Of a stretch of 64,000 bases of DNA, positions 640 through 43,533 are shown in pieces. How positions within the stretch are numbered: position 1 is the stretch's first letter; each line of letters starts with the position of its first letter. A program made the translations under genes and the position numbers. This DNA comes from Macrocystis pyrifera (Eukaryota > Sar > Phaeophyceae > Laminariales > Laminariaceae), in assembly GCA_031763025.1 (NCBI GenBank), contig JASSKH010000007.1, forward strand, positions 1,597,276-1,661,275. The letters run 5' to 3'. The notes under the pieces were generated by a model that was not told the DNA's origin, searched no databases, and saw nothing but the letters and a program-made list of their open reading frames with translations.

Positions 640-2827
640 ACGACGTGAGCACGCCGGATCGAGGTGGGGGGGGGGGGTGGTGGTGGATGAGCTGGACGAC
701 GGTCTGGCTTACTTGAACGACCTCGACGTGACGTGGGGTTTTGACCTGGACGCGTTTATGCAGGAGCGCGCACAGCACGCACCTGCCGGTGGCGAGGCCG
801 GCGGCGAAACACCCGAGACGATGGGTTTGTCTCAATGGGGCGCCGTGGACGCCTCCTCGGTCCCGGCAGGGACGGCCGGAAGCGACCCGGGCGCAGCATC
901 AGCCTCCGACACCGGCCAAGGGGACGGTGAGGATCCCCCCGCGGTCCTGTCGGGGAGGCCAGCACACGAGCTCAGCAGCTGGGGCCGGCTCCCTCCGACA
1001 GTACGGGGCCGGACCCGGGGTCAGAGCTAACCCCTGGAGGGTGAACCTGCTGTGCACCAGGTAGGGATGGGTGAAGGAGCCGCAGATGCGCTGCTTGCGG
1101 CAGCGTACGAGTCGTGGACGAAGCCTGGGAGTATGCTGAATCGTACGTCCTGGACGACGGAGGACGACGTGGCTTTGATGGCCGGAGGGCCTGCTGTGGA
1201 GAATAAAGGGGAGTTGAGCGTGTGCATGCCGAGTGGCTCCCCGGAAGACGTAGAACCGCCCCCGCAGTCCGTAGCAGATGTAGAGCGTTCTCAATACAAA
1301 GCGGCGTGGCACGAGGCCATGAAAATTGAGTTGGACGGTCACAAAACGACCGGTAGGTACGAAGCCGCGACACCGCCAAAAGGGCGGAAATCTGTAGGTG
1401 CGAAGTGGGTGTTTACCTACAAGACGGATAAGGATGGCCTGATAGTAAAGACAAAGACCAGACTTGTGGCCAAGGGTTTTAGCCAGGTGTGCAGGATGTA
1501 GATTATTTTCAAACGTTTGCACCAACTCCCTCGTCAGCGCCAGTTAAAAATCTGGCGGCTGTTGCAAAAGAACATGGTTCAAAGATTTTTCATCTAGACG
1601 TCGCACAAGCTTTTGTTCGTGCGAAACTTGACGTCGAGATATACATGAAACTACCCGGTGGGTGTGGTGACATGTCAGGAAAGATCGTCCGCCTGAACAG
1701 ATCACTGTATGGTCTAAAGCAGAGCGGACGGCAGTGGGCCGGATTATTGGTAGAGACCGTGGTAGAGTACGGAATGGAGCAGTGTAGGTCTGACCCGTGC
1801 GTGTTTCGCATGGTTGTGGACGGCAAGGTAGAACTGATCATGGCCGTTCATGTAGATGACATCGTGATCGTAGGATCGGATTAGACATGCAGAGATTTCC
1901 ATACCGCGCTAGTTACGAAATTCCCCACGAATAACCTCGGCGATGGTACACTGGTTGTGCTTGAAAACGCGACTGGGAATTGGGGACATTGGAGATTACG
2001 CAGAAGGCGTTCATTGAGAGCATGCTGAATCGTTTTGGGGTTATCTCATCCCCTGACATCCCCGCGACCCCCGGTGCAAAACTAGGTCAAAGAGAGGAGG
2101 GCGAAATTGGAGGAGACTGGCCGTACAGGGAGGCTGTGGACAGCTTGATGTGGCTGTCGAATATGACGAGGTCGGACATCTCGAATGTTGTCCGTGCTGT
2201 GGCGCGCCACAAGCCTACGGACATGCACCGCAAAGCAGTTTTGATTAATATGGCTTACCTCCACGAGACCAGGTTTATGGGATTGACTTTTGTGCGGGGC
2301 TCGGGATTGGATTTGACTGCGTATAGTGAGTCTGATTATGCTGGTAAGTCGAACGATAGGCGCTCGGTATCGGGGACGGTAATTGCCCTAGGGGGTGCGG
2401 CCGTCAGTTGGGCAAGTAGCACGCAGAGGTGTCTTACGTTGTCGACAGCAGAAGCAGAGTATGTCGCCCTGGGCGAAGGGGTGAAGGAAGCTTTGTTTGC
2501 GGGCGCGGTATTGTCGTTTGTCCAGAGCTAAGCGGATCATGTGTTCGGGTTTTCGAGGATGACCAGGGGGCCATAGCGTTGGCTGAGAACCCTCTTAGTT
2601 CTGCTCGGAGTAAGCATATCGACGTGTGTTTTCATGTAGTCAGAGAGCTACTTCGTGCTAAGAAGATCGGCATTCAGTTGTAGCTTCGGAAAAGCAGCAC
2701 GCGGATAATTTGACGAAATTTCCTTGCTGCGACCCCTTTTAAGTCTCACCGTAGGTTCTTGTTGAATCTGCCTTTGGAGAGTGAGCATTATTCGATGAGT
2801 ACCATGTTTGAGTTATGCGAGGAATAA
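640..2827 (+). pseudogene. Ty1/copia retrotransposon pol remnant (reverse transcriptase and RNase H)
   Basis: Reading-frame pieces give, in order, a linker (677-1030), the copia RT start with KWVFTYKTDKDG (1052-1490), the RT core with FAPTPS, DVAQAFVRA, LYGLKQS and HVDDIVIVG (1489-1881), and RNase H with SESDYAGKSNDRRS and STAEAEYVAL (1980-2520). The C-terminal motif SEKQHADNLTKF follows near 2690-2725. Breaks are visible: a TG duplication near 1489, an in-frame TAG at 1882-1884, and frameshifts near 1975, 2515, 2685 and 2740. The last frame ends with a stop at 2825-2827. Integrase and gag are not recognisable and no LTR was found. It is a dead copy. Confidence 0.88.
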
Positions 2828-5345: not shown

Positions 5346-7605
5346 CAGTTGTTGTTGTTGTTGTCTTCACATTCAATCGTCCTTTCTACCCAGCTTCATC
5401 AGTACACCCAGTGTCCGTCCTGATTCCTTACCCTAGATACATACTGATTCCGTGGTCACAGACTGTGAGACAGAGGAGGACCGAAAAATGAAAAAATAGT
5501 CGCAAATTCAAGTGTCAAGCAAGTGAAATGCCAGCGTACCGGGTACGAGAACACAACAACACAAGCAAGGCCAAAACAATAAGAACAAAAAGACAACAAA
5601 ACAAAAACAAAAAAAATGAAATGAAACAGAATGCAAACGACGCAAGGACTTCAGAAAGGCTGCCAGACGGAAATCATACATACCTAGGAAGGACAGATAT
5701 CTGCTGCGCGGACGAAGCAACACAAAAGAGAGGGAGCGACAGGCAAAAGTCTACAAGAGCTAGTCAAACCGATACCTAGCCATCCGATCTATCACTTCGT
5801 TTCTGCATTCGTCGACAGCTGTATCAGTACGGCTGCCCTTCCCCCCTCCCCCCCTCCCCCCCTCCCGTTGTGGCCGTTCTTGGCGTCCTCAGCTGCGTGG
5901 CGTAGCCGGCTCCTCTGTGCCTCGTCCCTGTGCCACTTCGCCATGAAACAGTCCGCCGCTTCGACGATCCCCCGGTACCACTTCCCGCTCTTCTTAGCCG
6001 CCCTCGGCCATAACACCGTTTCTACTCCGAACAGCAGAGGGGAGCTTTCCGTGGACCCCTCGGTGGCTTGGAAAACCTGAGGTCGTCTGCTAGACATTGG
6101 GCCCAGTTCTTTTCCGGTCGGGTTCTCCCCACCAGCCACCGTCCCAAACATCACCCGGCGGGTCAGCCGCTCATTGGTCGCCCGCTGTACGGCCGCCGCA
6201 AAGAGGAGGCACCTTTTGCGGATGGTCGTCTCAACGCTCTCGCATCGTTTTTTTTTTTAGGGCCTTGGCGTACGACATGAGGTGGTCAGTGCGTTGCCGG
6301 CGTTGGAAGCCAATGATCCGTAGGAGGAGTTTGTGGTGTGCCGTTCGGAGCTCAGCGCAGTGCTCCTGACCAAGAGTCCACGTCACGCACCCGTACAGCA
6401 GGGTCTCCATCACCTCGACCTTTAGCATGCGCACTTTTAGAGTGAACGGGGCATCCTCCATATCATACGGTTCCCGTTCGAACCGATTGTAGCATACCCA
6501 TGCGAGTCGGACCCGTCGTGTGATCTCTGGCTTAATGTCAGCGCTTGCGACGACAAGACCGCCCAGATACAAAAACTGCATCGTCTGTCTATATCTCCGT
6601 CCCGCTGCTTCGATGACGAGCGGTGAGGTCTGGGGTGCCTGATTCGGTGTCCGCAGCAGCACGGTCTCCGTTTTCTTGTCGGATACGGTGAGGCCTGCTG
6701 CTTCGAAAACGGTCACAATGACGGTCATCATCTTTGCAAGGCCTTCCGCCGACTTAAGACACAATGCCTGCATCGTCCGCGTACAGCATACCCCATACTG
6801 CCTTCCGTACGCAAGTTAGTGGGTCAACCTTCACCCCGTCCTCGCCGAGGTCCTCCTCGAGGTGAACCAAGTCCCTCAAAATATCTGGGTCTTCACTGAA
6901 GCGTACCAGCACGGCGTGTATCACTGTGACAGCAGCGAAGAAGACATTGAACAGAAGTGGTGACACGACACATCCTTGCCGCAGCCCCTGAGTGACGTCG
7001 AACCATTCCGAGCGCTCGCCGTCATCCGTACGCACGCGGGCTCGCATGCCTTCGTGAAACTGGCGGATAACGGTTAGCATCTTCCCTGGTACGCCGAAGC
7101 GTGCGAGCACCACCCACAGCAGCTCACGGTCGACGGAGTCATATCCTTGCTGCAGGTCGATGAAGCAAAAGTACAGGGGGATTTTTCTAGCTCGTCCGAG
7201 TTCTTGCAGTCGGCGCACGACGAACAGCATGTCGACCTTTGATCGTGCTGGGCGAAAGCCGCACTGTTCCTCGGGGAGTATCCCTTCGGCCTCGCAGAAG
7301 TTACTGAGGCGGGACGCGACCATTTTCAGCAAAACTTTGCCTGAACGGGCAACAAGCGAAATCCCCCGGTAATTGCTGCAATCAGAGCTATCCTTCTTTT
7401 TATGAAGGACCTTAATGGTGGCATCTTTCCATTGCTGGGGGACGTTACCCGTTCTCCACACGTTGACAAGTAAGTTGTGAAAGTACCGGATGAATTCGGG
7501 GTGGTCGATTTTCAGTAACTCGGCCGGAAGGGAGTCTGGTCCCACCGCTTTCCAGTTTGGCATACCCCGAAATACCGCCGTCATACCATCCATGCAGTAG
7601 GACAA
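5346..7605 (-). mobile_element. LINE (non-LTR retrotransposon), 5'-truncated, frameshifted
   Basis: On the minus strand the reverse transcriptase runs 7605-6755. It shows [46 protein letters not shown] and the catalytic [10 protein letters not shown]. It continues in a second frame (6773-6231: KVRMLKVEVMETLLYGCVTW) and a third (6154-5792: ATEGSTESSPLLFGV, GKWYRGIVEAA). Both later pieces align with the intact frame of the LINE copy at 42728-43533, so two frameshifts separate them; one coincides with a T-run at 6249-6260. The 3' UTR ends in a short AAC tail (reverse-complement TTG repeats at 5346-5362). No endonuclease domain is present. Confidence 0.88.
5792..7605 (-). pseudogene. LINE reverse transcriptase, broken by two frameshifts
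   Basis: This is the coding part of the LINE above: fingers and palm with YADD, thumb, and a C-terminal domain of about 250 residues. Its first frame has lost the N-terminal end, and endonuclease residues are absent. A C-run (5838-5866) lies at the end of the frame. The family is clearly non-LTR RT; I do not assign a clade. Confidence 0.85.
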
Positions 7606-7728
7606 AAACTACTTGTATTAATACTAGTTGTGGGAAGATTTCGAGGAACAGCAGGAAGTTCAAAAATTGTCCAGCAGCAGCAAAGCAGCGAGGGATTTCT
7701 TGCCCGCAGGTTGACTGATTCGGCTCAC

Positions 7729-10223: not shown

Positions 10224-12743
10224 CTACCGGAGCTGCCGCACACTCACCCCCCAACCGGGCGGAGGAATGAACGGTGGATAGGCCACGTGAGCGACGTCCC
10301 TCCTGAAGGTGACCAATAAGACATATCCACCTTGTTGCTGCTGTCGTCTAGCGAATGCACGCCAGCATTCTAAGAGGCCGTCCTCCACCGTGTTCGCTAG
10401 GCCATTTTCATCGTAGGGCAGGCCGTCGTCAACGCGGACTTCGCGTACTTGACGAGGAAGAGGCTGGTATGATACCACCGCGAACCCAGGAAGGGACGAT
10501 ACTACGACCGCTGATCCACATAACATGCAATCAGTGGTGGGCATCTTATCAGAACCATTGGAATACCTCGCGTGGCGGATAATATCGTCCACGCAAGAGC
10601 GGTGAAAGGTGTGTCCACAAGGCAGCTCGACCGTGCGGTTAGGTGACTCGTGTTCCTCAGTTGACATGAGTTGATTGCAAATAATACGGTCTGCGTATTT
10701 GGCAAGAGCAGCGTGTTTTTTCTAAACTTGTGCCGAGGTCTTCCCGGAGCTGATTGCGGCTGCTATGTCCATATACCCAAACCATGAGATGTGCGTGTAG
10801 AGTGAGCCTGAATTGCTCCTCCGTCATGCCAATGTTTGCTTGCACTTTCCCCAGGGCTCCACCGTCACCGTCAGAAGCGCCCACTCTCAGAACATGGTCG
10901 AAAACTGCTTGATTGAGTAGTTTCGCGAAAGAATGTTGCCGATGCAACAGGATCGTCCGCAACGGTTCTTAGCCTCGTCACATAATCGGGTATCTGTTCG
11001 AGGCATGTCGATGAAAGATCTATGTCATGGCCGCCGTAGTTCATGACGAGTGTAAGAATTGATCAGCTTAAAAAACGGCTCGCCTAGTTGTATCAGCATT
11101 GATATATCTTCAGTTCGTGTTTTGTTTTTCCCATGATCCGTCAACGTAGAATCAGGTGAGCTAGCTTGCAGAGTTCTCAAAAGCGTAAATATCTTGGCAT
11201 GTTCATTGAAGGCGGTGCGTGTACGTTTTCCCTGCTGCAGGTCTGTCGCCATCGACATGTGATCACTGCTCTTCACCTGTGCTATTTTTTCGGCCACATC
11301 AGCGGACATTTTCCCGCGTAGATTGAACTGCACATTGAATAGAGCTTCGTGCCTGAAAATGATGGTGGCACTACAGAAAAGAAGAACTGTCTTTCCGCCA
11401 GGACAAGTCGCGGCGGTTGAGCAAAATCCGGACCCATTTTACGAATGAAGCACTCATTTGACGAGTTGTGTCAAGTGGTCCTTAATAACTGGGAACAAGT
11501 GACCGAACGCCCCCATCCAGGCCTTATTATTGTGAAACTCAGAAATAATGTAGCCATGCGGAACTACAAGAGCATTTTCCGTCCTTTCAGGTGGCGGTCT
11601 TCCTTGAGACAGAGCAACTTGAGATGTTGCCACGGCATTGAGATCGAGGTCGTGCCCCAATCTTCGTAGCACACTCGGACGTTGTCGGGAAGACGTCAAC
11701 GACGGCATATGTGTCAATAATGCAGGCTCGTCCATCTTCTGCCGTAAGTTCCCTCCTCTACTTACTATCACATCGTCCGCCGGCGCGATATCGCCGTTGG
11801 CCTCGGCCATAGCAATGTCGTCTTCACGCCTGTCGTTCGTATACGACTCCGATGTTCTTCCTGTTAAGCTGTAAGGGTCTTCTGGTGTCAACACCGCCCT
11901 TAAAACTTCCTCAGGAACACTTTCGTCGACGGATAAGTATCGAGGTTAGGCTGACTGAATGCAGCTTCACGTGAGCTGAAACTCGCAGACCAGATTGTTT
12001 CCGTCCTTCATATATTTGATGAGGTCGCCCACGACGGTCTGTCGAGCTCCGAGTAAGCGCTTTAGCCGTGGGGACGCCGTTGGGTTGTGTTTTCCAGCGA
12101 GTAATATTGTGAACATATCCAATAAACCGGTCACAGCCATAGGCAACTCAGTCTCAACGGATGACGAATCGTTCGCATAGAAGCTGATGTCCCGCGAAGA
12201 GATCGTTGGGCGGAACCAGATATGTTTATGACCTTCCTTGATTCCAACGCGACAACATGTCCCCTGACGCGAACGGGAAAAAACTACTGTCGTATCCTGG
12301 AGATGGTCTGGTAAATTTTCAACCCAAAAGCCGTTCGCTAACGCAGCCTCTAGAATCTTATTTGACAACAGGGACATGCAACTTGCCCGGGTCTGATTCG
12401 TCGAACCTGTGCACACTGAGAACTAAACCATCGAGGACACCGTCAGCATCATGTGGACTATTGCGAAATTCCGACATTACTCGATCATGCCTTTGAAGAC
12501 AACCTGTCGCTTTGAGGAGATCCTAGTGAGGTAATCCACACGGCGTCAACATGTGTTGTTCCGTAACACGGGTCCACCCCTGTCGCATATACCGCAGGGA
12601 AACCTGTACGCAGAGAACGGGTTAATGTCATTGAGTGTTACCGTCAGATATGCGTTTCGGTTTAAATTACGACGAGAAAGAGCTACCTTTTGAGCTACGC
12701 TACAGCAGTAAACACAACTCACAGTGTGTTGTCCACAAAACAC
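10224..12743 (-). pseudogene. Helitron-like Rep N-terminal region with a RING-H2-like motif
   Basis: Minus-strand frames give, in order, a Cys-containing N-terminus (12743-12546: CGICDRGG), ALANGFWVENLPDHL (12416-11967) and EFHNNKAWMGAFGHLFPV (11894-11454). A middle piece follows (11333-11025), then MTEEQFRLTLHAHLMVWVYG (10962-10657) and ALAKYADRIICNQL. The WxGxFxxLFP and LHxHLxVW signatures are those of the Helitron helicase-like N domain (family knowledge). The frame running from ALAKYAD continues into PCGHTFHRSC and CMLCG, a RING-H2-like pattern lacking part of the first Cys pair. Stops and shifts separate the pieces. The rolling-circle tyrosine motif and the helicase are absent, so it is a truncated relic. 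Confidence 0.6.
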
Positions 12744-28231: not shown

Positions 28232-31200
28232 CTAGGATCGATCGTCTCTGCTCGACGAGATCGACCTTTCCTTATTCCTTAGTGATCCTGAGATTGGTGG
28301 TAATTTTCCTGCCCGTTCCATTGGGTGCGCTCCTCGCTCCATTGTGTGCAATGTTGGTTCCAATGAGTGCGCTGTTTGTTCCCTTGAGTGCGCTGCTGGT
28401 TCCGGTGCGTGCGGCTCATGTGTTGTTTCGGTCAACTCAACAGGATTCACCCTGGAGTTTCGGTGGATCGCGTAGGGCTTTGTACGCAGCTTACTCGTTG
28501 TCTTTACGCTGTTGAAGGAAGAGACGGGGATGTCCGCCTGAATGCTTGTGGAGTTGCGAATTGTACTGGTCATGCTCTTCCTCCTTGAGAACGAGGAGGT
28601 GCGACGCTGGAGCATGGTTTGGAGGTCACCAAAGTAGTGCAGCTAGGTTGTAGACATCGCACACCAGGGGCAGCCAGCGGCGTTCGGAACGTAGGAGAAG
28701 GTAAAGAGCGGTCAGTTGTACGTGGTACGAAGCTACATGCAGTGCTGCCGGTAGCGAGTCATCGGCGTGGTGGTGCGCTGGTGTGCTAGCGACCTGCCCA
28801 GAATGTCAGTTTTAACCTGGAGGTATACTCTACCGCCTTGAGCCCCCACCAGCGTGCTTATCTCGGCTCAGCGTTCACTCAATACTGAGACCAAATCAAC
28901 GTTCGCTGTGCGAAGTATAGCTTTAAGAATACCAGGTACCATTTGTCTCACCGCTGGACAAGAGCTTTTATCGTGCATGTTAGCCCTCCAATGTATGTGC
29001 AAGAGTGCGATAGGGACAGGGGCACAAGCGCCATGATTCTTAAGCCCCTTTTCGACGCCAACCTTACTCGGAATCCTCAGGATCTTGATTGAAAGGCTCG
29101 AAGAAATCAACAACCAGACACAGGCTGGCCCTCACCGGAAAATGCACAGCTGACGACTGCAACGGCAAGTAGTCGAAAGAGTCGCGTTTGTAGGGCTACG
29201 GGCTACATATCGACTATATACGGGCAAGTTCACCTTGTAAACTTTGGGTCCGAACACCACAGACACGGTGAATACCGTTCCACCGACGGCCGCGAAGCTT
29301 CGTGCGCATATTGTCGCCATGAGGTGTTCACTAACCAGCAGGTACAGCACCAGGTTGACCAGCCCCAGAAGCGTTGTGTTGTACACCGACAAGCAGATCG
29401 ATTGGGACTGACTTGGTGACGCGACCGAATATCGCCGATTTCGGTGGAGTCGGCGTGGTTCGTGTGCCCGCCATAGTGGGTTTGGTGTGGTTGGTCATTG
29501 GGAAAGCGGGACAAGACACGGAAAAAGAACGGTTTATCGTCAGAGGGGGTACCGGTATGGAGGCGGCGTTCGATCGACATATTTAAGCAAGACGATGGTC
29601 GGCCACCAAAATTACGGAGAGCGGGTTACCGGTTGGCATGTTCCAGATCGCTGCTTTCCCACCGCCCTTCCTATTAAGGTTGGTGCTTCTCCGCAAAACT
29701 TGTCTAGTGCCGTGTCACTTAAGCCCTCAAGCAGGAATGCAGTACCCCGACTAAATCGTAGCGCGGTGCAGTGTCATAGTGGTCGGCCACCAAATTACGG
29801 AGAGCGGGTTACCGGTTGGCATGTTCCAGGTCGCTGCTTTCCCACCGCCCTTCCTATTAAGGTTGGTGTTTTCTCCGCAAAACTTGTTTAGCGCCGTGTC
29901 ACTTAAGCCCTCAAGCAGGAATGCAGTACTCCGACTAAATCGTAGCGCGGTGCAGTGTCATAGATGAGTGGAGTGCCCTACAGACTCTTCGAATAAGGCA
30001 TTCATAATGTTTAGAACATCACCCCATCACCACCAAAGATGTCGGGTGAAGGCACTTTAGTCCCTTCACAGACAGGACAGCCGTTAAGAGGCTCCTCATA
30101 CTGAAAACGGGTATAGCACCTAAACCTACGAAGGCCATGACGGGTAGAAACTATCAATAGATCAACCGACACTCGTTGATCACCACACCAAGTGTTTTAT
30201 CTTCGTCGCTTCAAAACAAAGACACAGCCAACGGTAAAGATACAGCCAACGTTAAGAACACAGCCAACGGCAGAGAAACGGCCAAGGATAAAGGCACAAC
30301 CGACAAAACTGAACAAACCAACCGTGCAGACACAGCCAACGACATATGCACAGCCAACGGGAATAACACAGGCAACGGCAAAGGCACAGCCAACGGTGAA
30401 GACACAGCGAGCGGTAAGGACGCAACCAACGATCACGAGGGCACATCGCACCTCGCCCACTCCGTCGGCACAGTTCCATGTTTTGGCGGCCATCACCACC
30501 CCGAAGGCGTTTAGCGCACCTTTGTAGACCCACAGTATTGTACTGAAGTACCGGGCCCCAGAAGCGCACACGGGGCTAAGCACCTCTGGGTCGTACGTCA
30601 TAGGGACCGTGTGGGTTGCAGGTGAAGTAGAGCGCGAAGCATTAGATACGTGGACTTGTCGAAAAAGGTGATGCGAAAGCCTGGGCTGCTGCTATAGTGG
30701 GCCACGAGCACCCTGAAGGGAAAATTATCTCACGATACTCTGCCAGGAGCGAGTTAGGCCATGATGGTCGATCAATTATAACAAGCGACGCCCGATGTGG
30801 AGCTCAAAACGATGTGCCGCAGTGCTGTGAAATTGTATTGGACAGAGACGGGCGTCTTCTCAGGAAAAAATAAAAAAAAGGGGCGTTGCCGTCATGAACA
30901 TGATTATTGGGGCATTTGAAACAACGACCCATTACTTCTGAAGTGTTCATGACTTCTAGCATGTCGTCGTATATATTAATGACATGGTCAAGGTTCCAAA
31001 GATTTCAATAGAGGTACTGCTTGCGTTACCCGGCGTAGTGCGAAGAAAAAATATGGTTGATCAATTCTTGGCGCTCGACATTTTACCGCCACTTGGTGGA
31101 ACCACCCTCTATTCGCGGCCGAACGAATCTCCCGACAAAGTAGTGTTACAGGTTTGGGAAAAATCCGCGTTGTTCCAACACAGCTGTTGCGTAGAATGTG

Positions 31201-34200
31201 ATTTTTTACCTCCAACTCTAATTTGGTCGAGTGTGAAAACGTGAATGTTGCGTGGATCAGCTGCCCGCGATAAAAGCTGCCGAGACTTATCTGCACCGGT
31301 TTACCATTTCCAGGATAATATAGCCTCCAGTGTTTTCGCACCGAGGAATAGGAAGCAGTGCAAGGAAGGGGGCGGCGGGGCGGGTTCACCTGCGTAACCG
31401 TACACCTCGAGAGTCATGGCCGTGTGTGGACCGTCCACAATCATCCACAGGGTTAAAACCACAACGTCCACAGCCACCAGCCTCAGCACCCACATCACCA
31501 AACTCCTACCGCAGTAGACAATGTTGAACAGGTTGGGCGGCGCACACATCGGCTTTCACATAAATAGTTCCGCAATCGGCGAAAATAAGATGTCGAAAAA
31601 AATGGAGTGGAGGCGTTGCACATCAGTTAGGTCGGCACTCGTAGACATATTACTTTGTTCATCTCGCTGATGGAAGCAGCATTTCAACCACTACGACGGA
31701 CCGTGGGCACGCCTTTCAAGTCAGCGGGGAAAAGGCGTCGGGAATCATGCACTGGATGGACGTTTTTAGTTACGGCGGCGCTCTCAGGTTGCAAATCCTT
31801 GAGTGAGGTACAACGGAACGTTGTCGCGTCTACCGACCACAACATCACGTTGCCATGAGTCAAATATTTTCGTACTGGAGCGTCAACTATTGCTACGAGT
31901 ACACCAGGAATTGTACAGCGACGCAGAGGGGGACAATTGGGTCTCGGTGTCACAGCATGTAACCCCCTTCCTTCGAAACAAATGGTGTTAGTGTTAATAG
32001 AGGGGGAGTCCCAGTCGAAGTACAGTAGTGCCCAGTTGAGTATGCTCTGCTGCTGCTTTAAACTTTAAAACCCTGCAAAACGTTCAAAGCGTGCATTCTA
32101 CATTCATTCACCTGTCCGAAATAGACATGCGAACCAGAGATACCGAGTTGAATAGCCGATGGACTCGGTACGTCTTCATGTATAAGCAGCTGATAGAGGA
32201 CAAAGTTCATCGACATATGAGGGACACGGATAGGACCAGGGAGGGGGTTAACAGGTCTGCTTGGATTTTGATGCATGACACCGCTACATGGCAAAGAGAA
32301 AGACCAAAGTTTGGCGTCGCAGTCCCCGGAAGATTATAGTACCAAGATTTTCATTTTTTCGGCTACGGCTTGTTCTCCAGCCACCTATGATATGTCGCGA
32401 GACACCGTTAAGCGCAGTATGGCGTACATCCGTGCCACACGGCCGCACGCCGTGTTTCTGCTCCCTCGTTCTTGGCTGTACGTCATTTTCGATCGCTGCT
32501 TCGAACCCTGTCAACGTGGCTGTGATGCTCACCTTACAGCGAATGTTAAGGCGGTGTGCATCAGGAACGGTCGCGTTTTGCAGATGAGGTTCGAAGGCTT
32601 CCCTAAAAACAGAGGCCCGGTGAGATTAAGCAAGATGCATCCCGTCAGGAACAGCTTGCACACGAACGGCTGACAGCGCTTAACGATGGCGTACTGCCGG
32701 AGCGAAGTCCAAAGTTGGGGTCGGAAAATGGAGATGGATGGGGATAAGGGCAGTGCTCCTGAGTATTCCAACTCGGGGTAGCGGTAAAGGGCATTCATCT
32801 TGAGCATACGAACTCGGGTTGGCGTAGAAACCAAATGGTCTAGAGTGCATCAGCTGGGTTCCTCTCAAGACAATGTTCACAGCATGACCACACACTCTGG
32901 CTAAAATCATGTGGTGAGGCTGCGATTGCATGTCACGCGCTCGAGTGGCGCCCTCTTCTAAGCGATTTGACCCCGCTCCCGACCATACTTTAGAGTCATG
33001 CTACATTACCAGCGTCGGGGTGCTGCCAACGTAGTGCTCGCACCCGGTATGTTGGGCTTGCGAACTTCCCTAGCCCTTTGGGAAGAAAGGGGAAAACCGT
33101 CGAAACGTAAAATGTGGCGATCACATCATTGATCACACGAAGACACATAAGGAGGGATGCTGGAGCAGGGGATTTTTACTTGTGGAGACATCAAACAACG
33201 TAGCACACAAGTAGGTGTGCCGATTGAGAGGTTGTCGACACCTTGCGGATTTCGCTACATTGTTCAACGTCTCCACAATGATGTTTTGACGTCTACATCG
33301 TGCAGGAGGGGGGGGGGGGGCGGCCACCCGTGAGGGTGCGCTGGGTGTCGTTGGGTACAGTATTATACATGAAAAAAATACGCAAGTACGAGTATACCAG
33401 TACAGAGCGAGTGCAACGGAGGGAGATATACGGCACGGGCGCAGCATCGTACCTGGTAGTAGTTATGATGCTGAACGCTCTTCCTAGACGAATATTGATA
33501 ACGCTGCGCTTGAGGCCCTTAAGGTGGGCTGTACTTTAACCAACCCCCAAAAGGGTATAGGCGTAAGACCGATGATAATGGGAACGATATCTAAAACGTT
33601 TGATTTTTCATGCTTTACGCCATTTCAGCGGCTGTGTCTCACAGCGAACTTAAAATGAGGCTTTCTGCTATCGGGGCTATTTTATTTCTTTTACGAGAGC
33701 TTTCCAGTGCTGTTGGTGATAATTCATACAGGGTTTGGCTTCGAAGGTTTTACGAGAGAGCAAGATTTCGACAAAATTCCTATTATTGGTCCAAAACCAA
33801 CAGACTTTCCAATCTCGTCAATAAATGGGTCAATCTTTGAGAGTGTTTCGAAATCTTGCTCCCTTGCATAACCTTCAATGCTGGACCCTGTGTGAACTAC
33901 TAACGTCATTGGAAAGCTCTCGCAAAAATGATGAAGTAGTCCCTATAGCAGAAAGTCTAATTTGAAGCTCCCGGCGAGATACAGCCGCTGAAATGGTGTA
34001 AAAGCAAATATTCAAACATGTGAGATCTCGTTCCCATCATCATCGGTCTATGTCAGCAGTAAAAAGCGTGTACAGGCACGGTATGCCTTGTCGACTTTTT
34101 TACAGCACTGCAACGAGAGCTGAGGAGGGGCTTGCGCACAATGAAGAGTGGCTCGACAAACACCAGATGCAAGAAAACTCGTACCTCACGATGCTGCGTT

Positions 34201-37200
34201 ATCCACAACAGATAAAAAGAAGCATAAAGAGCACCGAAGACGGAAGCCCCGGTCATAGCATATCCCAAGACCGAAGAGGCCGGGATGTAGCCTGATGTTT
34301 TTTACCAAAAGGACAAGTTGCGTGCAGAAGGGTAGAAATGGAGTTTTGGCCGCCGGGGAGCGGGGGGGAGGGCGATAGTTGTGTTATGTGGGGTAGAGTC
34401 AGCAATTGCGTTGCAGGGAAGGTTTGGCGCTGCAAACAGCTTTGAAAACAAATTACGCGCACGCGCAGCCCACGTCGTGGTGATCCTGCTGCTGCACTAC
34501 GAATTCCACGCGTTACGGCGACGAAGGGGGCGGCATTCTCTTTGGGACGTCGAGTCGCTCGGCATTGGTGCGTCAGTTGTCACAGAGCGCATGGATATTT
34601 TTGGCGATCCCGTGGTAAAAACTAAAAAAACAGTGAGCATCCTTCGCCGGAACACTTGCCGTGGCACTTTATTTCACAGCGACAACAACAAGAACAACAA
34701 GGAAACGCGTCGCTCGAAAATCTGCAAATACGAAACCTCTGCTTTTTTTCGACACCGCTCACTTACTGCATGGAACCCTGGTATCTGTCGGAAGGTCCAG
34801 GCCGCCTTCGCATTTGGTCCCTTCCTTCCATCCGTGCACCACCATCCGGTAGAGGTCTGAGGTACACTCTCCTACTTTAATGTCCAAGGATTCTATGACA
34901 CACTGATCGGACCCGACGACGTATGCCTAAAGTAGGCGCCACGTCACGACAAACGCGGAGGCGCACACGGTAGAGGAGGGAGTGCTTGACCATAAACCCC
35001 ACGTTGGGACGTTTGGCGAAAAGAACGATTGGACCCTACTCCGGAACGCGTTACGGTTGAGCTGCATCGAACTTTTTTTATCATACTGGATGGATCAGTA
35101 CGTTGAAGAATAACAAGTGTTTCCCGCCTGCTTGTCTCCTTCGTATACACGCATTGCCCATAACGCCGGGGCAATCAATGGAGGTGACCGGTACCCGGCC
35201 CCAGCACACTGTGGGCGCAAACAAATAGTTGTGGAGACATTGAACAGCGTAGCAGCCCAGTACGCGTACCGAATTCAGAGCTTGTCGATACCTCGCGAGG
35301 GTTGCCGCACTGTTCAATGCCTCCACAAGGATTGTTGTACGCCGACATTGTGCAAGGGGAGGATCCCAGCCACCTGAGAAAGGGGCAATACCGTATCGTA
35401 TACTAGAGTGACAGAGGAAAACGCACAAACAACACGACATATTGCGGACGGCACTAAAATGTTTCCACGATGAACTGCCCTCGCGACCGCGCCTCGGGTA
35501 TGCTCCTGCGTAATGGGGCGATCAGATGGCCCATCTAAGCCTGCCCTTTTTCATTTTCCCGCCGTACTGTTTCGTACCTCAAAAGGGCTCCCAGGGATGT
35601 TGAGACCGTGCCTTTGTACAAAGAACAGCTCCGTCCCTGACTCGTTCTGCGTGCGCATCTGTACCCGGTACGACCCGTCCCCAAGATCGTAAACCGCCTC
35701 CTGGACCTTGTGGGACATGGTACTTGTGGTCCAGGCATCAAAGGCGTCGCCCCCGTATCCAGTGAAAATCTCGTTACTGTAGAAATCTCTACTAGTGAAA
35801 GATATGTTGATCAAGGCGTGCATCTCTACGGTCGTCGGGAACGTCGTTAGGACTGTCAATCGGACGGGGAGGCACGGGAAGAGGGGGTTCCAGTGTTACG
35901 TAGGTGGCTGGCTCAGAAAAAGCATAAAGAGGGATGCATACGTTGCTCTTATTGTGAGGGGGGCAAGCAAGCCAGGATGAGTCATCATACTGAGGCTGGA
36001 AACACGTTTTCCTTGTAGCGGGTCTTCTAACTAGTTTGGTGCATACAGTCGAAAACGTTTCAGCACGGTGTAGCAGACTGAGGCTCGGCAACGTTTGAGC
36101 AATGGTTGTAATATTGCTGATGGGGTCTTCGTTATGCTAGGGCAATCCGCCGCCGCGTCGAACTTGACGTGGCCTGTAATTTTTCGGACTTACCGACGCT
36201 TGTTGGCGCATATGGTTCCCCTGACGTGGCCGTCATGTTCAAACTCGCCAAAACGCCGCCCGACTCTAGTTCTACCTGCGGCAAGATATGAAAAGCGGAA
36301 GAAAATCGAACGAAGTAAGTAAAACAACCACGGAGTACTAGAAGCAACCACGGCTACCATTTGGGGGATACCGATACTGAGTTGCTGTATTATCCCTGCC
36401 GTACGTTGACTCGCCTCGTCCCGTCTGGTGGGCTGCTGATCTCGCGAATACTGCCGCGAACAGGGTCCTGATTTTGCCGAGACACGGTAGAGTACAATCT
36501 GGCGAAGAAGACACTCGCAGGACGAAAAAACAATCTCGGCACACTTTCTCGGCGCATAAAACGTAGGCGATGAACTCACCACGACGGAGTGTATCCCGGT
36601 GACTGGCAGGCGTACCGAAAGGTGCGTTTCTGACTTCGACATGCTGTCCATCTGACCCCAAAAGACGATCGACGCCGGTATACCGAAGTACGGAAACGTC
36701 ACCGCGACTGTGCGTATCCTATGCACCGAAATATGTTAAGAACGTAGGGAGGGCAAAGGGAGAGGATACGTTGAGCCGTAATTGGCAGGGTATCGACGTG
36801 AATGCTCGCAAATACACGTTGCTATCGGCACCTGTGGCTTGCTCTCAAAGGGCTATCGTGTGCGCATGGGATGAACCATCGTTTGAACTTGGCAAGGAGC
36901 CATATGCAGTCCGGGAGACTGAAACGGATCCAGCCAGACACGAAACGCGTCTACCTTGCTTGTCGAAACCAGCACCCCTTTCGCGTTGACTTTTGGTCTT
37001 AACCACGGATTGACCAAACCGGACGCCGAACGCAGGTGGCTACATTGAGCGTCGATTTGAACGTTGAATTTCCATACGTACACACCGCAACGGGATGCCA
37101 TCTCCCAGGTCGCAACGTTCCCCTTCTTCGACAACGCCCACGACGACCAAATCCGACGTTGTGTTGACCTGCCGCAGCAACGACGTTTGCTGGATATGAA

Positions 37201-40029
37201 TCTTCGGGTAGAACGGGTATTGCTGCTTCCTGCTGTAGATCATTGCGCACAGCAGACTCTCTGTTTCTCTCCACGACAGCTCTATTTAAAAGAAATTACG
37301 TCTGTCTCATGATTGTGTCGCCCGGGTGACCATCTCACTCAGGCGCTTCAGCGATGCTGGGCCTGACATGAGTGTGGTCGTCCAACTAGAATAATCGGCC
37401 AGCAATAACACTACCCAGCGGTCAGACGAAAGGTACCCACGCGAAAATTCCTCGCGAGGCTCGTTTGTCGAACGTGATTCGCGCGAGGTCAGACGTGAAC
37501 CTGGTGTATTTACCAGTTGTGAATGAAAGGTATGGGAATCGTTCCTCTCTACAGTAGTAGCACATATACTCTAAGACAGCAGTTTGGAGTCGCACGTCCA
37601 TGTCGTCGTCCACTAATATGCAGACGCGGCTCCGCAGTGTCGATATACGCAAGGTCACTCGTCGGTCAAACAAACGACAGAACACAAGAAGGCATCAAGA
37701 TAAATGTCGATTCTGGAGAAAGACGCCACCAGCTATCAGTTTCCGTCGTGGTGTTAGTGTAAGTATCAGAATCGGTATCGGTGTCCGCGTCGGTGCCGGT
37801 ACCGGTGCCGGTACTGGTATTGGTATAGGGTTCGATATTGGTTTTGATTTCGGTGATAGTGTTTGTTTACTAGATGCCACCGGTGGCGCAGCGACTGCAC
37901 GATCAAGAGCACCTCACCACGAATGACATGGCTCTGCAACGGTGAAACACGTATGGTCACTCGGCACTCGAACCACATCTGATACAAAAACGAAGGCATC
38001 GTCAAGAGAACTGACGATTCTAGAGAAAAGCGTCACCAGCTAGTATTCCTTAGCTGTCACCGGCGGCACAGCACAGCGACTGCATGCGCAAGGCCGCCTC
38101 ACCACAGACGACGCCGGCGCACGGATGTCTACCCCGCAGGTGTAGTAGCTGTTCACAAAGGCAAACTTATAGTCCTCGTCGACGGCGTACCAAATGGACC
38201 CGTTCCCGGACGCTGCGCTGTAAAGTTCAAACCATCCGTACTGGTAGACGTTTTCCGAGGTCGATGCTTGAAGCGACGCCAGCTCGCTGTTCGGATCTCG
38301 CGAGCACAAAAAGGGATGCCCGAGCGTCACCGCTTGACCAAAATAGAACCAGCACCCTTCTGAGAACTGGCTGTATACTTCGCTCGACAAGAGGGAATTG
38401 GCCTCTGCGACCGTGAAGTCAGGGTCCACTCCACCGAGAATCCAAGCCCAGTCGCCCAAATTGGCGTCGAAGGATGCCACATTGAAGCGCACTGTCACGA
38501 CAGCTCCGATGTTGGTGCTGTTAACCTTCGGCGGTGACAACGGGATGGAGACACACAGCGATCAATTTTTCATTCCCTTAACGGCCTCCCAGCGGCCACG
38601 ACAAAATATTAATATCCTGTGAACTTGTTGGTATGCGTATGGTGGAGTGATGTGAGGCTACGGGCATGGGAGTAAAGAAAGGAGTGTCAAGTCTATACCA
38701 AGGCGTGAGCCAACTTAAATAGGCGAGGCGTTCAAGTTTGCAGTATGGCATTCGACACGTTTTTTGCTATTTAGCAAGGACAAGGTACTGTACTGCTGTA
38801 GTCGGATGTAGACCCCTGTCAGTTGTTGTTGTTGTTGTTGCTGTTTTCTTCACATTAAACCGTTCTTTCTACAGTGGAACACCGGCAGCGTGACGGGATG
38901 ACCCAATGGGTTTTCTTGGGACGAGGGACAGCAAAACGATTGATGGAATTATTGTAACATTAATACCAGGTGCGCTCTTGAATACCGACTCGTTCAAGTA
39001 CTCATCCGCCGGCACAAATACATCCGGCTGTGGGGGATAAAACCGCCGTTCAGTTGCAGGTGCACTCACGTTTCGGGGGCAAAGTACTTAAAATTAGAGT
39101 TGCACTTTTTTTGCAGGTGATGAAGGGATCAACGCACCTGCAATATGTCATAGTGTGGTTGGTACACTTGAAACTCCACGCAATCTGCAGCACTGCAGTT
39201 CTCGTCTCCAAGAATCAAGCACGCTACGTAAAACCCAGGGTCTCCCAGAAGTACCAACGCACTCCCCGCTTCCGACGCCATGCTGTTCGTTGTCGCATTG
39301 ACATCCTGCCCAAGCGTTGAAGTATACCACCACGTGGAGTTACTTGAAAGCTCAACGGTTGTTTGGCTGCTCCTGTTCTGGTTGTCGAAGGGATGCAAAG
39401 GATCGACGATATACGCGGTGTAGTTACAGACGTCGGAGCCCACGCCCATGTCATCGGGAAATATAGAGTATTCCTCGAGTAACGACGATGAACTGCCAGA
39501 AGACGACGACGAAGACCTGCGAAGACAAAAACATCGTATTCGTAAATGTTGGTGGTATGACATGGTGACATGGGCAGTAAAATCGGCGACCCACATAACT
39601 TGTCTATACGTATTAATAAAAGCACGAATAGGACACGAATCGTCGTATTGATATGCACCTATATTGGAATAGTGCTTCTCTCGCTCCCGTCCCTTATCCC
39701 TCGTCCGCAAGCAAAACCTCGTGTCGGCATGTCGGCACAACCAACACGTGCAGGTTCGTACGTTCGTACCTGTTGGTTTCGTTGACGGACCCGAACCTCA
39801 GCAAGTCAGTCCGCAAGTTATCGAAAAACACGATGACGCGATCACGAGGGTCAGCGGATCCAGTACCCCGGAAGGCCCACGATATATTCGTGAGCGACTC
39901 CGCGTGCCACGCTTCCAGCGAGATGAAGGTGCCATTGTAAACAATTGCCGCCGAGCTGGTGACGGCGGTGCCGGTCGCCGGCAATAGCTGCACCGACAGA
40001 TGACAAACCAAGATGATGCCGAACAACAT
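28232..40029 (-). CDS. Class C (GABA-B-like) GPCR with filamin repeat
   Basis: A multi-exon membrane receptor. Exons with matching phases: 36718-36580, 36275-36194, 35852-35578 (filamin repeat: GDGSYRVQM, IPGSPFE), 34926-34767 (Cys-rich pre-membrane stretch), 34291-34185 (TM1), 32693-32533 (KRCQPFVCKLFLTGC, TM2-3), 32189-32112 (YMKTYRVHRLF), 31505-31390 (TM4, VDVVVLTLWMIVD), 30585-30452 (YKGALNAFGVVMAAKTW), 29407-29234 (SVYNTTLLGL to FGPKVYK, TM6-7) and 28642-28232 (tail and stop). The YKG..FGV..A.KT and SVYN...FGPK patterns are diagnostic of class C 7TM. Upstream exons: 40029-39770 (signal peptide MLFGIILVCHLS), 39516-39138 (Ser-rich start, several N-glycosylation sites), about 39027-38967, about 38529-38103, and a piece ending at 37437. 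Joins between 39027 and 36718 are unsettled. Such receptors couple ligand binding outside the cell to G proteins; the ligand is unknown. Confidence 0.85.
28292..28425 (-). repeat. 21-bp coding minisatellite in the GPCR tail
   Basis: Five 21-bp units encode heptads of the type AHxxExx (AHSREQT, AHSLEPT, LHTMERG, AHPMERA and one degenerate) in the cytoplasmic tail. The open frame is kept. Confidence 0.75.
29597..29963 (+). repeat. 184-bp tandem duplication in a GPCR intron
   Basis: Two nearly identical copies (29597-29780 and 29781-29963) begin GGTCGGCCACCAAA and end GCGGTGCAGTGTCATAG. They lie between the TM5 and TM6-7 exons. Confidence 0.92.
30210..30440 (+). repeat. 18-bp-type minisatellite (ACAGCCAACGGTAAAG) in a GPCR intron
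   Basis: About a dozen degenerate units occur in the intron just downstream of the TM5 exon. Reading frames in both strands across it are repeat artefacts. Confidence 0.85.
33165..33335. mobile_element. Hairpin MITE, copy 1 (TGTGGAGACATT ends), GPCR intron
   Basis: Inverted arms TGTGGAGACATCAAACAACG and (reverse) TGTGGAGACGTTGAACAATG lie around about 60 bp. The flank TTTTGACGTCTACATCGTGC is shared with the copy at 35185. It lies between the TM1 and TM2-3 exons. Confidence 0.7.
33605..34012. mobile_element. Foldback element, arms about 180 bp, GPCR intron
   Basis: The left arm has ACGCCATTTCAGCGGCTGTG and GAGAGCTTTCC. It is matched in reverse complement by the right arm, ending CAGCCGCTGAAATGGTGTAA. 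The centre is near 33810. No reading frame. It could fold into a long hairpin in the receptor pre-mRNA. Confidence 0.75.
35185..35378. mobile_element. Hairpin MITE, copy 2, GPCR intron
   Basis: An imperfect palindrome of about 190 bp. The left arm is CAGCACACTGTGGGCGC then GTTGTGGAGACATTGAACAG; the right arm is its reverse complement with a few changes. Same family as 33165-33335. It lies between the filamin and pre-membrane exons. Confidence 0.75.
37745..37862 (+). repeat. 6-bp-type GGTNCC/GGTATC minisatellite, GPCR intron
   Basis: Repeated GTATCGGTGTCCGCGTCGGT-like hexamer units (GGTGCC, GGTACC, GGTATT) in an intron of the ectodomain part. Confidence 0.75.
38821..38874 (-). mobile_element. 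LINE 3' stub, GPCR intron or exon edge
   Basis: Reading on the minus strand it is GTAGAAAGAACGGTTTAATG, TGAAGAAAACAGC, then AAC repeats: the last 55 bp of the LINE family. Its GTAG start creates an in-frame stop just after the third ectodomain exon, so that exon must splice before it. Confidence 0.8.
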
Positions 40030-42622: not shown

Positions 42623-42727
42623 ACCTGTTACCTGTTACCTGTTGGGTTGGCACTCGGTATTGCATGCCTTGTACCTGCAGCTGAGAGTTGCCCTGCTACA
42701 TGCGAAATCGAGCGACGAATCCGTCTG

Positions 42728-43533
42728 ATGCGGGCATGCCTCAAACGGTATGGTCCGGAAAGTTTCTGTACGATAGGACGAACGCACCGCTTAGTCTGAA
42801 AGTCCGGATGCTGAAGGCCGAGGTGATTGAGACCTTGCTGTACGGTTGCGTGACGTGGACCCTCAATGCGGACCACTTCGCCAAGCTTCGATCAGCCCAC
42901 CACGAAGGCCTTCTGCGAGTCATTGGTTTCCAGCGCCGACTACGCACCGACCACACCACCCTCTCGTATGCGAAGGCGCTCAGGATAACTCGATGCGAAA
43001 GTATCGAAACGACCATCCGTAAACGGCGACTCTTCTTTGCGGGGGCTGTGGTGCGGCAACACGAGGGGCGATTGCCCAGTCGGTTGATGTTCGGGACGAT
43101 CGCTGGTGGGGGGAGCCCGAAACCAGGCGGGCAGCCCAAGACTTGGCCTAGGGCCATTGCTGAGGACCTTAGAGTGTTCAAAGCCACCGAGGGATCAACG
43201 GAAGACTCCCCCTTAGTCTTGGGAGTTGGGACCGCACTGTGGCCCACTGCAGCAAAACAGACGGGAAAGTGGTACCGGGGAATCCTCGAAGCAGCTGAAC
43301 AGTTCATGGGCAGGTGGCACGAGGCTGAGGCAAAGCTGAGTAGACAGCGCCGTGCATCCGCTGCAGGTAGTGTTAGAGGGAATGGGGGGAGGGGTAACAG
43401 CAGGAGGGGTAGAAGGAACACCGTACAAGTGTATGGGGGCAGGGGGGGGAACAGGAGGAGTAGAAGGGAAACCGCGGTAGAAGAGAGTAGCAGAGAGACC
43501 GCAGATAGGGTAGCAAGGTACCAGGCCGACTAA
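42728..43533 (+). pseudogene. LINE polyprotein C-terminal fragment, open frame
   Basis: The frame shows SLKVRMLKAEVIETLLYGCV, SAHHEGLLRVIGFQRR, KRRLFFAGAVVRQ and ATEGSTEDSPLVLGVGTALW, then a basic Gly/Arg-rich end and a stop at 43531-43533. It aligns with 6560-5792 (minus) and has no stop, so it is younger or less decayed than that copy. The RT catalytic core is missing. Confidence 0.85.

Follow-up and report, generated by a model that had tools for sequence, protein, structure and literature searches.

Class C receptors are usually pictured as flytraps closing around a small molecule. GPR158 is described as a member without a flytrap (PMC8611064, excerpts). In mGlyR/GPR158 and GPR179, a class C 7TM domain is combined with a Cache plus EGF-like ectodomain, and class C receptors with diverse ectodomains are reported from filastereans and holomycotans (PMC12716839, excerpts). 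Diatom class C receptors, as presented in excerpts of PMC3727952, branch basal to the GABA-B receptors and have variable N-termini; seven of them have a ligand-binding domain and others do not, and a figure legend of that paper names 5-nucleotide-C and Cache 1 domains. Filamin repeats, which the original prediction for the locus studied here called usually intracellular, need a more qualified description, as extracellular cases exist. Plant GEX2 carries extracellular filamin repeats and acts in gamete adhesion (PMC4160995, excerpts), and an Acanthamoeba filamin-repeat protein has a signal peptide and a transmembrane part (PMC10880599, excerpts).

We analysed a stretch of 64,000 nucleotides from the kelp Macrocystis pyrifera (the window). 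On balance, we think that a single gene here, gene A, encodes a cell-surface, G-protein-coupled class C receptor that would work by the mechanism proposed below. An older copy of like build, paralogue B, is present in the same genome. Gene A occupies the minus strand from 40029 to 28232 (C221:1625507-1637304, minus strand, as computed from the place of the window). In the spliced model, 15 exons separated by 14 GT-AG introns form a single open frame of 983 amino acids, which begins with ATG at 40029 and ends with a TAG finishing at 28232, so that the outer limits given in the original prediction are exact to the single base. The protein comprises a signal-like start, an ectodomain of ~570 amino acids, a full-length class C 7TM domain and a basic tail, distributed over the exons as follows.

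39770..40029, minus strand: exon 1, start codon, signal-peptide-like hydrophobic start and onset of membrane-distal domain 1 (gene model; hydropathy peak at residues 1-19; domain 1 kept in paralogue B)
39138..39516, minus strand: exon 2, membrane-distal domain 1, a Ser run and then a Cys-bearing core (gene model; tblastn against B, where exons 1 and 2 are one unbroken exon)
38133..38525, minus strand: exon 3, membrane-distal domain 2, 131 amino acids, of no known family (52.7% identity to paralogue B)
37086..37168, minus strand: exon 4, ectodomain, 83 bp (start set by homology to B, equal in length and phase)
36580..36718, minus strand: exon 5, ectodomain, 139 bp in both A and B (gene model)
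36194..36275, minus strand: exon 6, ectodomain, 82 bp in both A and B (gene model)
35578..35852, minus strand: exon 7, filamin-like repeat, 275 bp in both A and B (sub-threshold Pfam Filamin match, C-terminal half of the profile)
34767..34926, minus strand: exon 8, four-Cys stalk immediately preceding TM1 (C546, C558, C576 and C590 kept in paralogue B)
34185..34291, minus strand: exon 9, TM1 (gene model; Pfam 7tm_3)
32533..32693, minus strand: exon 10, TM2 and TM3, including the TM3 Cys C664 (gene model)
32112..32189, minus strand: exon 11, end of TM3 and intracellular loop 2 (MKTYRVHRLF), 78 bp (gene model)
31390..31505, minus strand: exon 12, TM4 (gene model)
30452..30585, minus strand: exon 13, extracellular loop 2 with Cys C751, and TM5; terminates in GVGE (gene model)
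29234..29407, minus strand: exon 14, TM6 and TM7; terminates in FGPKVYK (gene model)
28232..28642, minus strand: exon 15, cytoplasmic Ser/Arg-rich tail and stop codon; its opening LHYFGDL resembles LWWHGDL of B (gene model)

The model was built from splice sites and phase after a full reading of the minus strand from 40029 to 28232, and the 78-bp exon at 32189-32112, SCLYMKTYRVHRLFNS, was located by enumerating phase-compatible exons. An initial version had 16 exons and 1034 amino acids. It contained a 42-bp exon (38986..39027, minus strand), which is open in frame, and a longer exon starting at 37279; neither is matched in B, and the 42-bp candidate was rejected. The start of exon 4 was moved from 37279 to 37168 because an AG acceptor lies there, because this choice reproduces the 83-bp length and the phase seen in B, and because the version from 37279 has no match in B. 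Guided by paralogue B, the best-supported exons between 39027 and 36718 are 38525-38133, 37168-37086 and 36718-36580; the position 39027 named in the original prediction belongs to the rejected candidate. The initial whole-protein Pfam and PDB searches used the first model, in which the 7TM exons were the same as now, and both were repeated with the revised proteins.

It is virtually certain that protein A carries a class C 7TM domain. Its match to Pfam 7tm_3 spans residues 596-844 and takes in profile positions 4-251 of 251 (E 2.3e-39, 136 bits, cut-off 33.5), and paralogue B shows a full-length match as well (E 1e-37, 130.6 bits). The best solved relatives are GABA-B2 chains (hmmsearch 1.4e-28, ~280 residues), followed by GABA-B1 and mGlu receptors, which bears out the proposal of a GABA-B-like class C domain. 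Port et al. (PMC3727952, excerpts) name, as conserved across the class, two Cys, a Lys and an Arg where TM3 ends, an acid at TM6 and PK in TM7. A and B share the disulfide Cys of the TM3 top (C664) and of extracellular loop 2 (C751), the K685 and R688 that close TM3, and P843-K844 in TM7; they also share E789 at TM6, which aligns with the Asp that precedes TM6 in GABA-B2. Helices were assigned from the Pfam and PDB alignments. A plain hydropathy scan at a threshold of 1.4 speaks against the model in that it flagged only four of the seven, and it also picked out a hydrophobic segment in the ectodomain (first-model residues 170-191).

Paralogue B lies on the same contig as A, ~269 kb apart and on the plus strand (C221:1906300-1924310); it too has 15 exons, and one of its introns is GC-AG. 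It was found by a 7tm_3 profile search of the genome (537,376,219 bases in 223 contigs), after which 40 kb around the match were examined. The only place this search listed is an exon of B; gene A itself was missed, just as exon 7 was missed by the genome search for filamin, and two receptor genes is therefore a lower bound for this genome. When protein A was compared with the B locus by tblastn, all 14 matches at E <= 0.01 were collinear on one strand, the weakest at 32.0 bits; this count applies to that threshold, since the wider comparison (to E 50) held many out-of-order chance matches. As a control, protein A was compared with 199,725 bp of the sequence between the two genes, where it had 86 matches at E <= 10, the best of 26.2 bits, and C221:1661276-1861000 held no further A-like match at E <= 1. 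Homologous junctions agree in phase in 13 of 13 cases, an agreement that is partly built in because the exon borders of B were chosen with A in view. Exons 4 to 15 can be compared directly, and eight of these 12 have the same length in A and B. The signal exon of B was not located at its locus, and the start of B at the ATG at C221:1906300 is assumed.

The two proteins are 44.6% identical over 902 aligned residues. Identity is highest in the 7TM domain (56.0%), followed by exon 3 (52.7%), exons 4-6 (46.5%) and the filamin-like exon (40.2%), and is lower in domain 1 (35.1%), the Cys exon (34.0%) and the tail (26.5%). Estimated divergence (dN 0.55, dS 2.23, pS 0.71, with dS near saturation) suggests that both sequences are under constraint.

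These comparisons bear on whether the filamin-like and 7TM exons belong together. We hold with high confidence that they would be joined in a single mRNA, a prediction made from genomic sequence. The original prediction likewise placed both in one gene, and it gains support from the frame that stays open across 14 introns and from the collinear paralogue. The alternative is a pair of adjacent genes: exons 1-8 would encode a filamin-like protein that is secreted or crosses the membrane once, and exons 9-15 a short 7TM protein. The large introns of gene A would suit such a pair, but the junction of exons 8 and 9 has the same phase in A and B with no intervening stop, and the order and strand of the modules are kept in a copy ~269 kb distant at a dS of about 2.2. 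Separate mRNAs are thus unlikely given an old collinear copy in which order, strand, phases and, largely, exon lengths are preserved, and we consider the two-gene arrangement very improbable. That gene A is instead a pseudogene or an assembly artefact is harder still to credit: the window does hold transposon-derived sequence, but the frame is open over 15 exons and the paralogue differs by a dN well below dS.

Repeated or transposon-like sequence can be seen both inside and outside the gene. By eye, introns 7 and 9 contain two related short elements (about 35380-35230 and 33290-33170) with inverted-repeat ends, TTGTGGAG...CTCCACAA, which resemble small non-autonomous transposons. Intron 13 holds, at about 29600-29960 and again by eye, a direct repeat of ~180 bp in two near-identical units, which shows as a repeated peptide in the ORF at 29412-29891 (plus strand). 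Copia-type reverse transcriptase fragments lie at 1031-2531 (plus strand): RVT_2 matches 1031-1501 at E 1.2e-8, and 1965-2531, with no Pfam match, nonetheless reads like the same type of element. A further reverse transcriptase is found at 6231-7608 (minus strand; RVT_1 E 9.9e-23 at 6754-7608). The ORF at 42685-43533 (plus strand) has no Pfam match and is similar to the ORF at 6231-6815 (minus strand); the two seem to be copies of one element family. Adjacent ORFs at 10224-12422 (minus strand) carry DUF6570 (E 9.5e-10) and a RING finger, and are possibly part of a mobile element. Scans for tRNAs and Rfam families across the window returned nothing.

The ectodomain of A is very likely secreted, with a signal-like hydrophobic start at residues 1-19 by hydropathy. 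The filamin-like module is membrane-proximal only and is preceded by ~420 amino acids of unmatched ectodomain. For this distal part (about residues 23-445 of A and the equivalent in B), Pfam gave no family at E <= 10, and a PDB profile search to the same threshold returned two unrelated matches (E 0.8 and 4) and no flytrap; the original prediction, which saw no usual bilobed ligand-binding domain, agrees with our searches. Pfam at E <= 5 found no flytrap, Cache, EGF or NCD3G domain in whole proteins A and B. NCBIfam gave a single weak match (E 0.14) in one of the two copies, a self-blastp check of the ectodomain for internal repeats returned the self match alone, and AlphaFold produced a poor model of exon 3 (mean pLDDT 35). 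Eleven ectodomain Cys are conserved between A and B. Four of these (C546, C558, C576, C590) lie in exon 8, so that a Cys-containing stretch does sit just before the membrane, as had been proposed. The ectodomains contain 15 (A) and 14 (B) N-glycosylation sequons.

A filamin repeat had also been proposed before the membrane. A filamin-like module is indeed found there, but it scores below the Pfam cut-off in both copies, and a comparison with filamin-matching sequences of the same genome by hhalign is weak; hence the name "filamin-like". Taken alone, exon 7 of A matches PF00630 with E 0.0016 and 19.7 bits (profile 45-93 of 93), and its counterpart in B with E 0.085 and 14.1 bits (profile 53-93 of 93), the cut-off being 26.9 bits. 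Within whole protein A the match has E 0.058, and it is absent from the whole-protein results for B at E <= 5. When the exon is searched alone, Filamin is the sole Pfam family better than E 0.1 in A or B. A two-copy profile of exon 7 gave 16 weak matches in the PDB (E 0.041 to 10); filamins and gelation factor account for eight, among which are the top three, and the exon ends in a filamin-type GSPF motif in both copies. The two-copy exon 7 was also aligned with seven sequences taken from loci of this genome that match filamin; three were short, and the locus of one scored below the Pfam cut-off. The hhalign probability was 7.7% (E 0.0046). AlphaFold, given an alignment of two sequences, yielded a poor model of the exon (mean pLDDT 51), with which Foldseek found nothing at E <= 0.001 and no filamin among the best 50 of 1894 matches; neither this model nor that of exon 3 counts as support here. 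The CH domains and repeat array of an actin-crosslinking filamin are absent: the 983 amino acids contain one filamin-like stretch and no further Pfam domain outside 7tm_3 at E <= 5.

Elsewhere in the genome, open frames gave 14 filamin matches, of which nine, on C222, C143, C129 and C126, exceed the cut-off. When the 14 loci, ~3 kb apiece, were compared with the receptor, none matched it convincingly; tblastn returned four matches at E <= 1, the best (0.051) to the tail. Related frames with a filamin match are L026-L031 and L033 (contigs C222 and C143) and L039 (C208), seven of the eight being over the cut-off and L039 below it. In seven of these eight, L028 being the exception, the match is followed by an LGGSVQRGVFL-like stretch reminiscent of NXPE/PC-esterase proteins; Pfam found no NXPE/PC-esterase match in two frames of this type that were scanned. 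One more filamin-like frame, L035 1414-1632 (minus strand, contig C206), scores 25.9 bits, just under the cut-off, and weakly matches the Ig-like domain found at the N-terminus of GEX2 (E 0.022).

How might such a receptor work? We propose that the sequon-rich distal modules would bind an extracellular partner, which could be a cell-wall polymer, a surface glycoprotein or a diffusible signal. The filamin-like module and the four-Cys stalk would then serve as a rigid coupler, in the role that the Cys-rich domain has in mGlu receptors. Movement reaching the 7TM domain would loosen the contact between the TM3 Lys and the TM6 Glu, and the 7TM domain would in turn activate a heterotrimeric G protein. 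Judging from the residues retained, coupling to G proteins is likely, and the same genome contains exons for G-alpha (PF00503; 21 matches on 6 contigs). There is about an even chance that the putative ligand is a wall or surface glycan or a protein, and not a small amine. A bolder reading, and one we put forward only as a long shot, is that brown algae evolved a class C receptor class of their own, with distal modules that are carried on a filamin-like stalk braced by disulfides and sense the wall, an adjacent cell or a signal released by eggs. If true, kelps would have in these receptors their first molecular candidates for proteins that sense walls or gametes and act upstream of heterotrimeric G proteins.

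Three alternatives concern the parts of this receptor, and each bears on a different step. Exon 7 could be some other Ig-like or E-set beta-sandwich that resembles a filamin repeat, with the receptor otherwise as described. This deserves serious consideration, given that the profile is matched in its C-terminal part alone, that both copies fall short of the cut-off, that hhalign against the seven filamin-locus sequences is weak, and that Foldseek placed no filamin among its best 50 (with a poor model). Against it stand the absence of any other Pfam family under E 0.1 for the exon alone, the filamins and gelation factor that make up half of the PDB matches and all of the best three, and the GSPF motif closing the exon in both copies; we lean towards the module genuinely belonging to the filamin family. 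Further out, the distal 420 amino acids could be a highly diverged Venus-flytrap, in which case the receptor would be of the common class C type and the filamin-like module an addition inserted into it. The length is suitable for a flytrap and the sequence evolves fast (35-53% identity between the copies), but the Pfam and PDB searches described above found no flytrap, and the 7TM domain of the same proteins readily finds its relatives, so the missing match cannot be put down wholly to general divergence. We regard a hidden flytrap as rather unlikely. The signalling step is also open to a different account, in which the protein is a decoy or adhesion receptor whose signal bypasses G proteins, passing for instance via the basic tail. 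The Ser/Arg-rich tail would fit, yet no other part is less conserved. This account is unlikely, given that A and B keep the class C activation residues that we checked, that the 7TM domain is the best conserved part and that the genome has G-alpha genes. A class C receptor with a filamin-like stalk, coupled to G proteins, is our preferred description.

Going by titles, there was no filamin-bearing class C receptor among the open-licence papers listed, and, by title and the start of the abstract, no on-topic paper on filamin in Ectocarpus. InterPro may already record such an architecture in brown algae. Among viral contigs, 32 stretches fit the pattern of possible relatives and none was confirmed.

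Set beside the described systems, the kelp receptor is closest in its 7TM domain, among solved structures, to GABA-B2, with which it shares the Cys pair, the TM3 Lys/Arg, the TM6 acid and the TM7 PK. It differs from GABA-B2 in that no Venus-flytrap (ANF_receptor) is detected; its place is taken by distal modules with no match, followed by a filamin-like module and a stalk with four Cys. Unlike mGlu, CaSR and T1R receptors, it gives no NCD3G match (E <= 5), and its pre-membrane exon has four conserved Cys. Diatom class C receptors are comparable in being stramenopile members of the class, some of them without a ligand-binding domain; they differ in that no pre-membrane Cys-rich domain was found, and the word filamin is absent from the main text of that report (PMC3727952, excerpts). 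Like mGlyR/GPR158 and GPR179, the kelp receptor would be a flytrap-less class C protein, but those have Cache and EGF where it has filamin-like and four-Cys modules (PMC12716839, excerpts). GEX2 also presents filamin-type repeats outside the cell, on a single-pass protein with no 7TM domain (PMC4160995, excerpts). As flytrap-less class C receptors and extracellular filamin repeats are both already known, we view the kelp receptor as a variation on an established type, the new element being the combination of a filamin-like stalk, unmatched distal modules and a class C 7TM domain. Brown algae thereby gain two concrete receptor genes for testing, and a conserved pair joining the class C 7TM switch to a filamin-like stalk and a sensor of no known family would show that this switch can be driven by another kind of input module.
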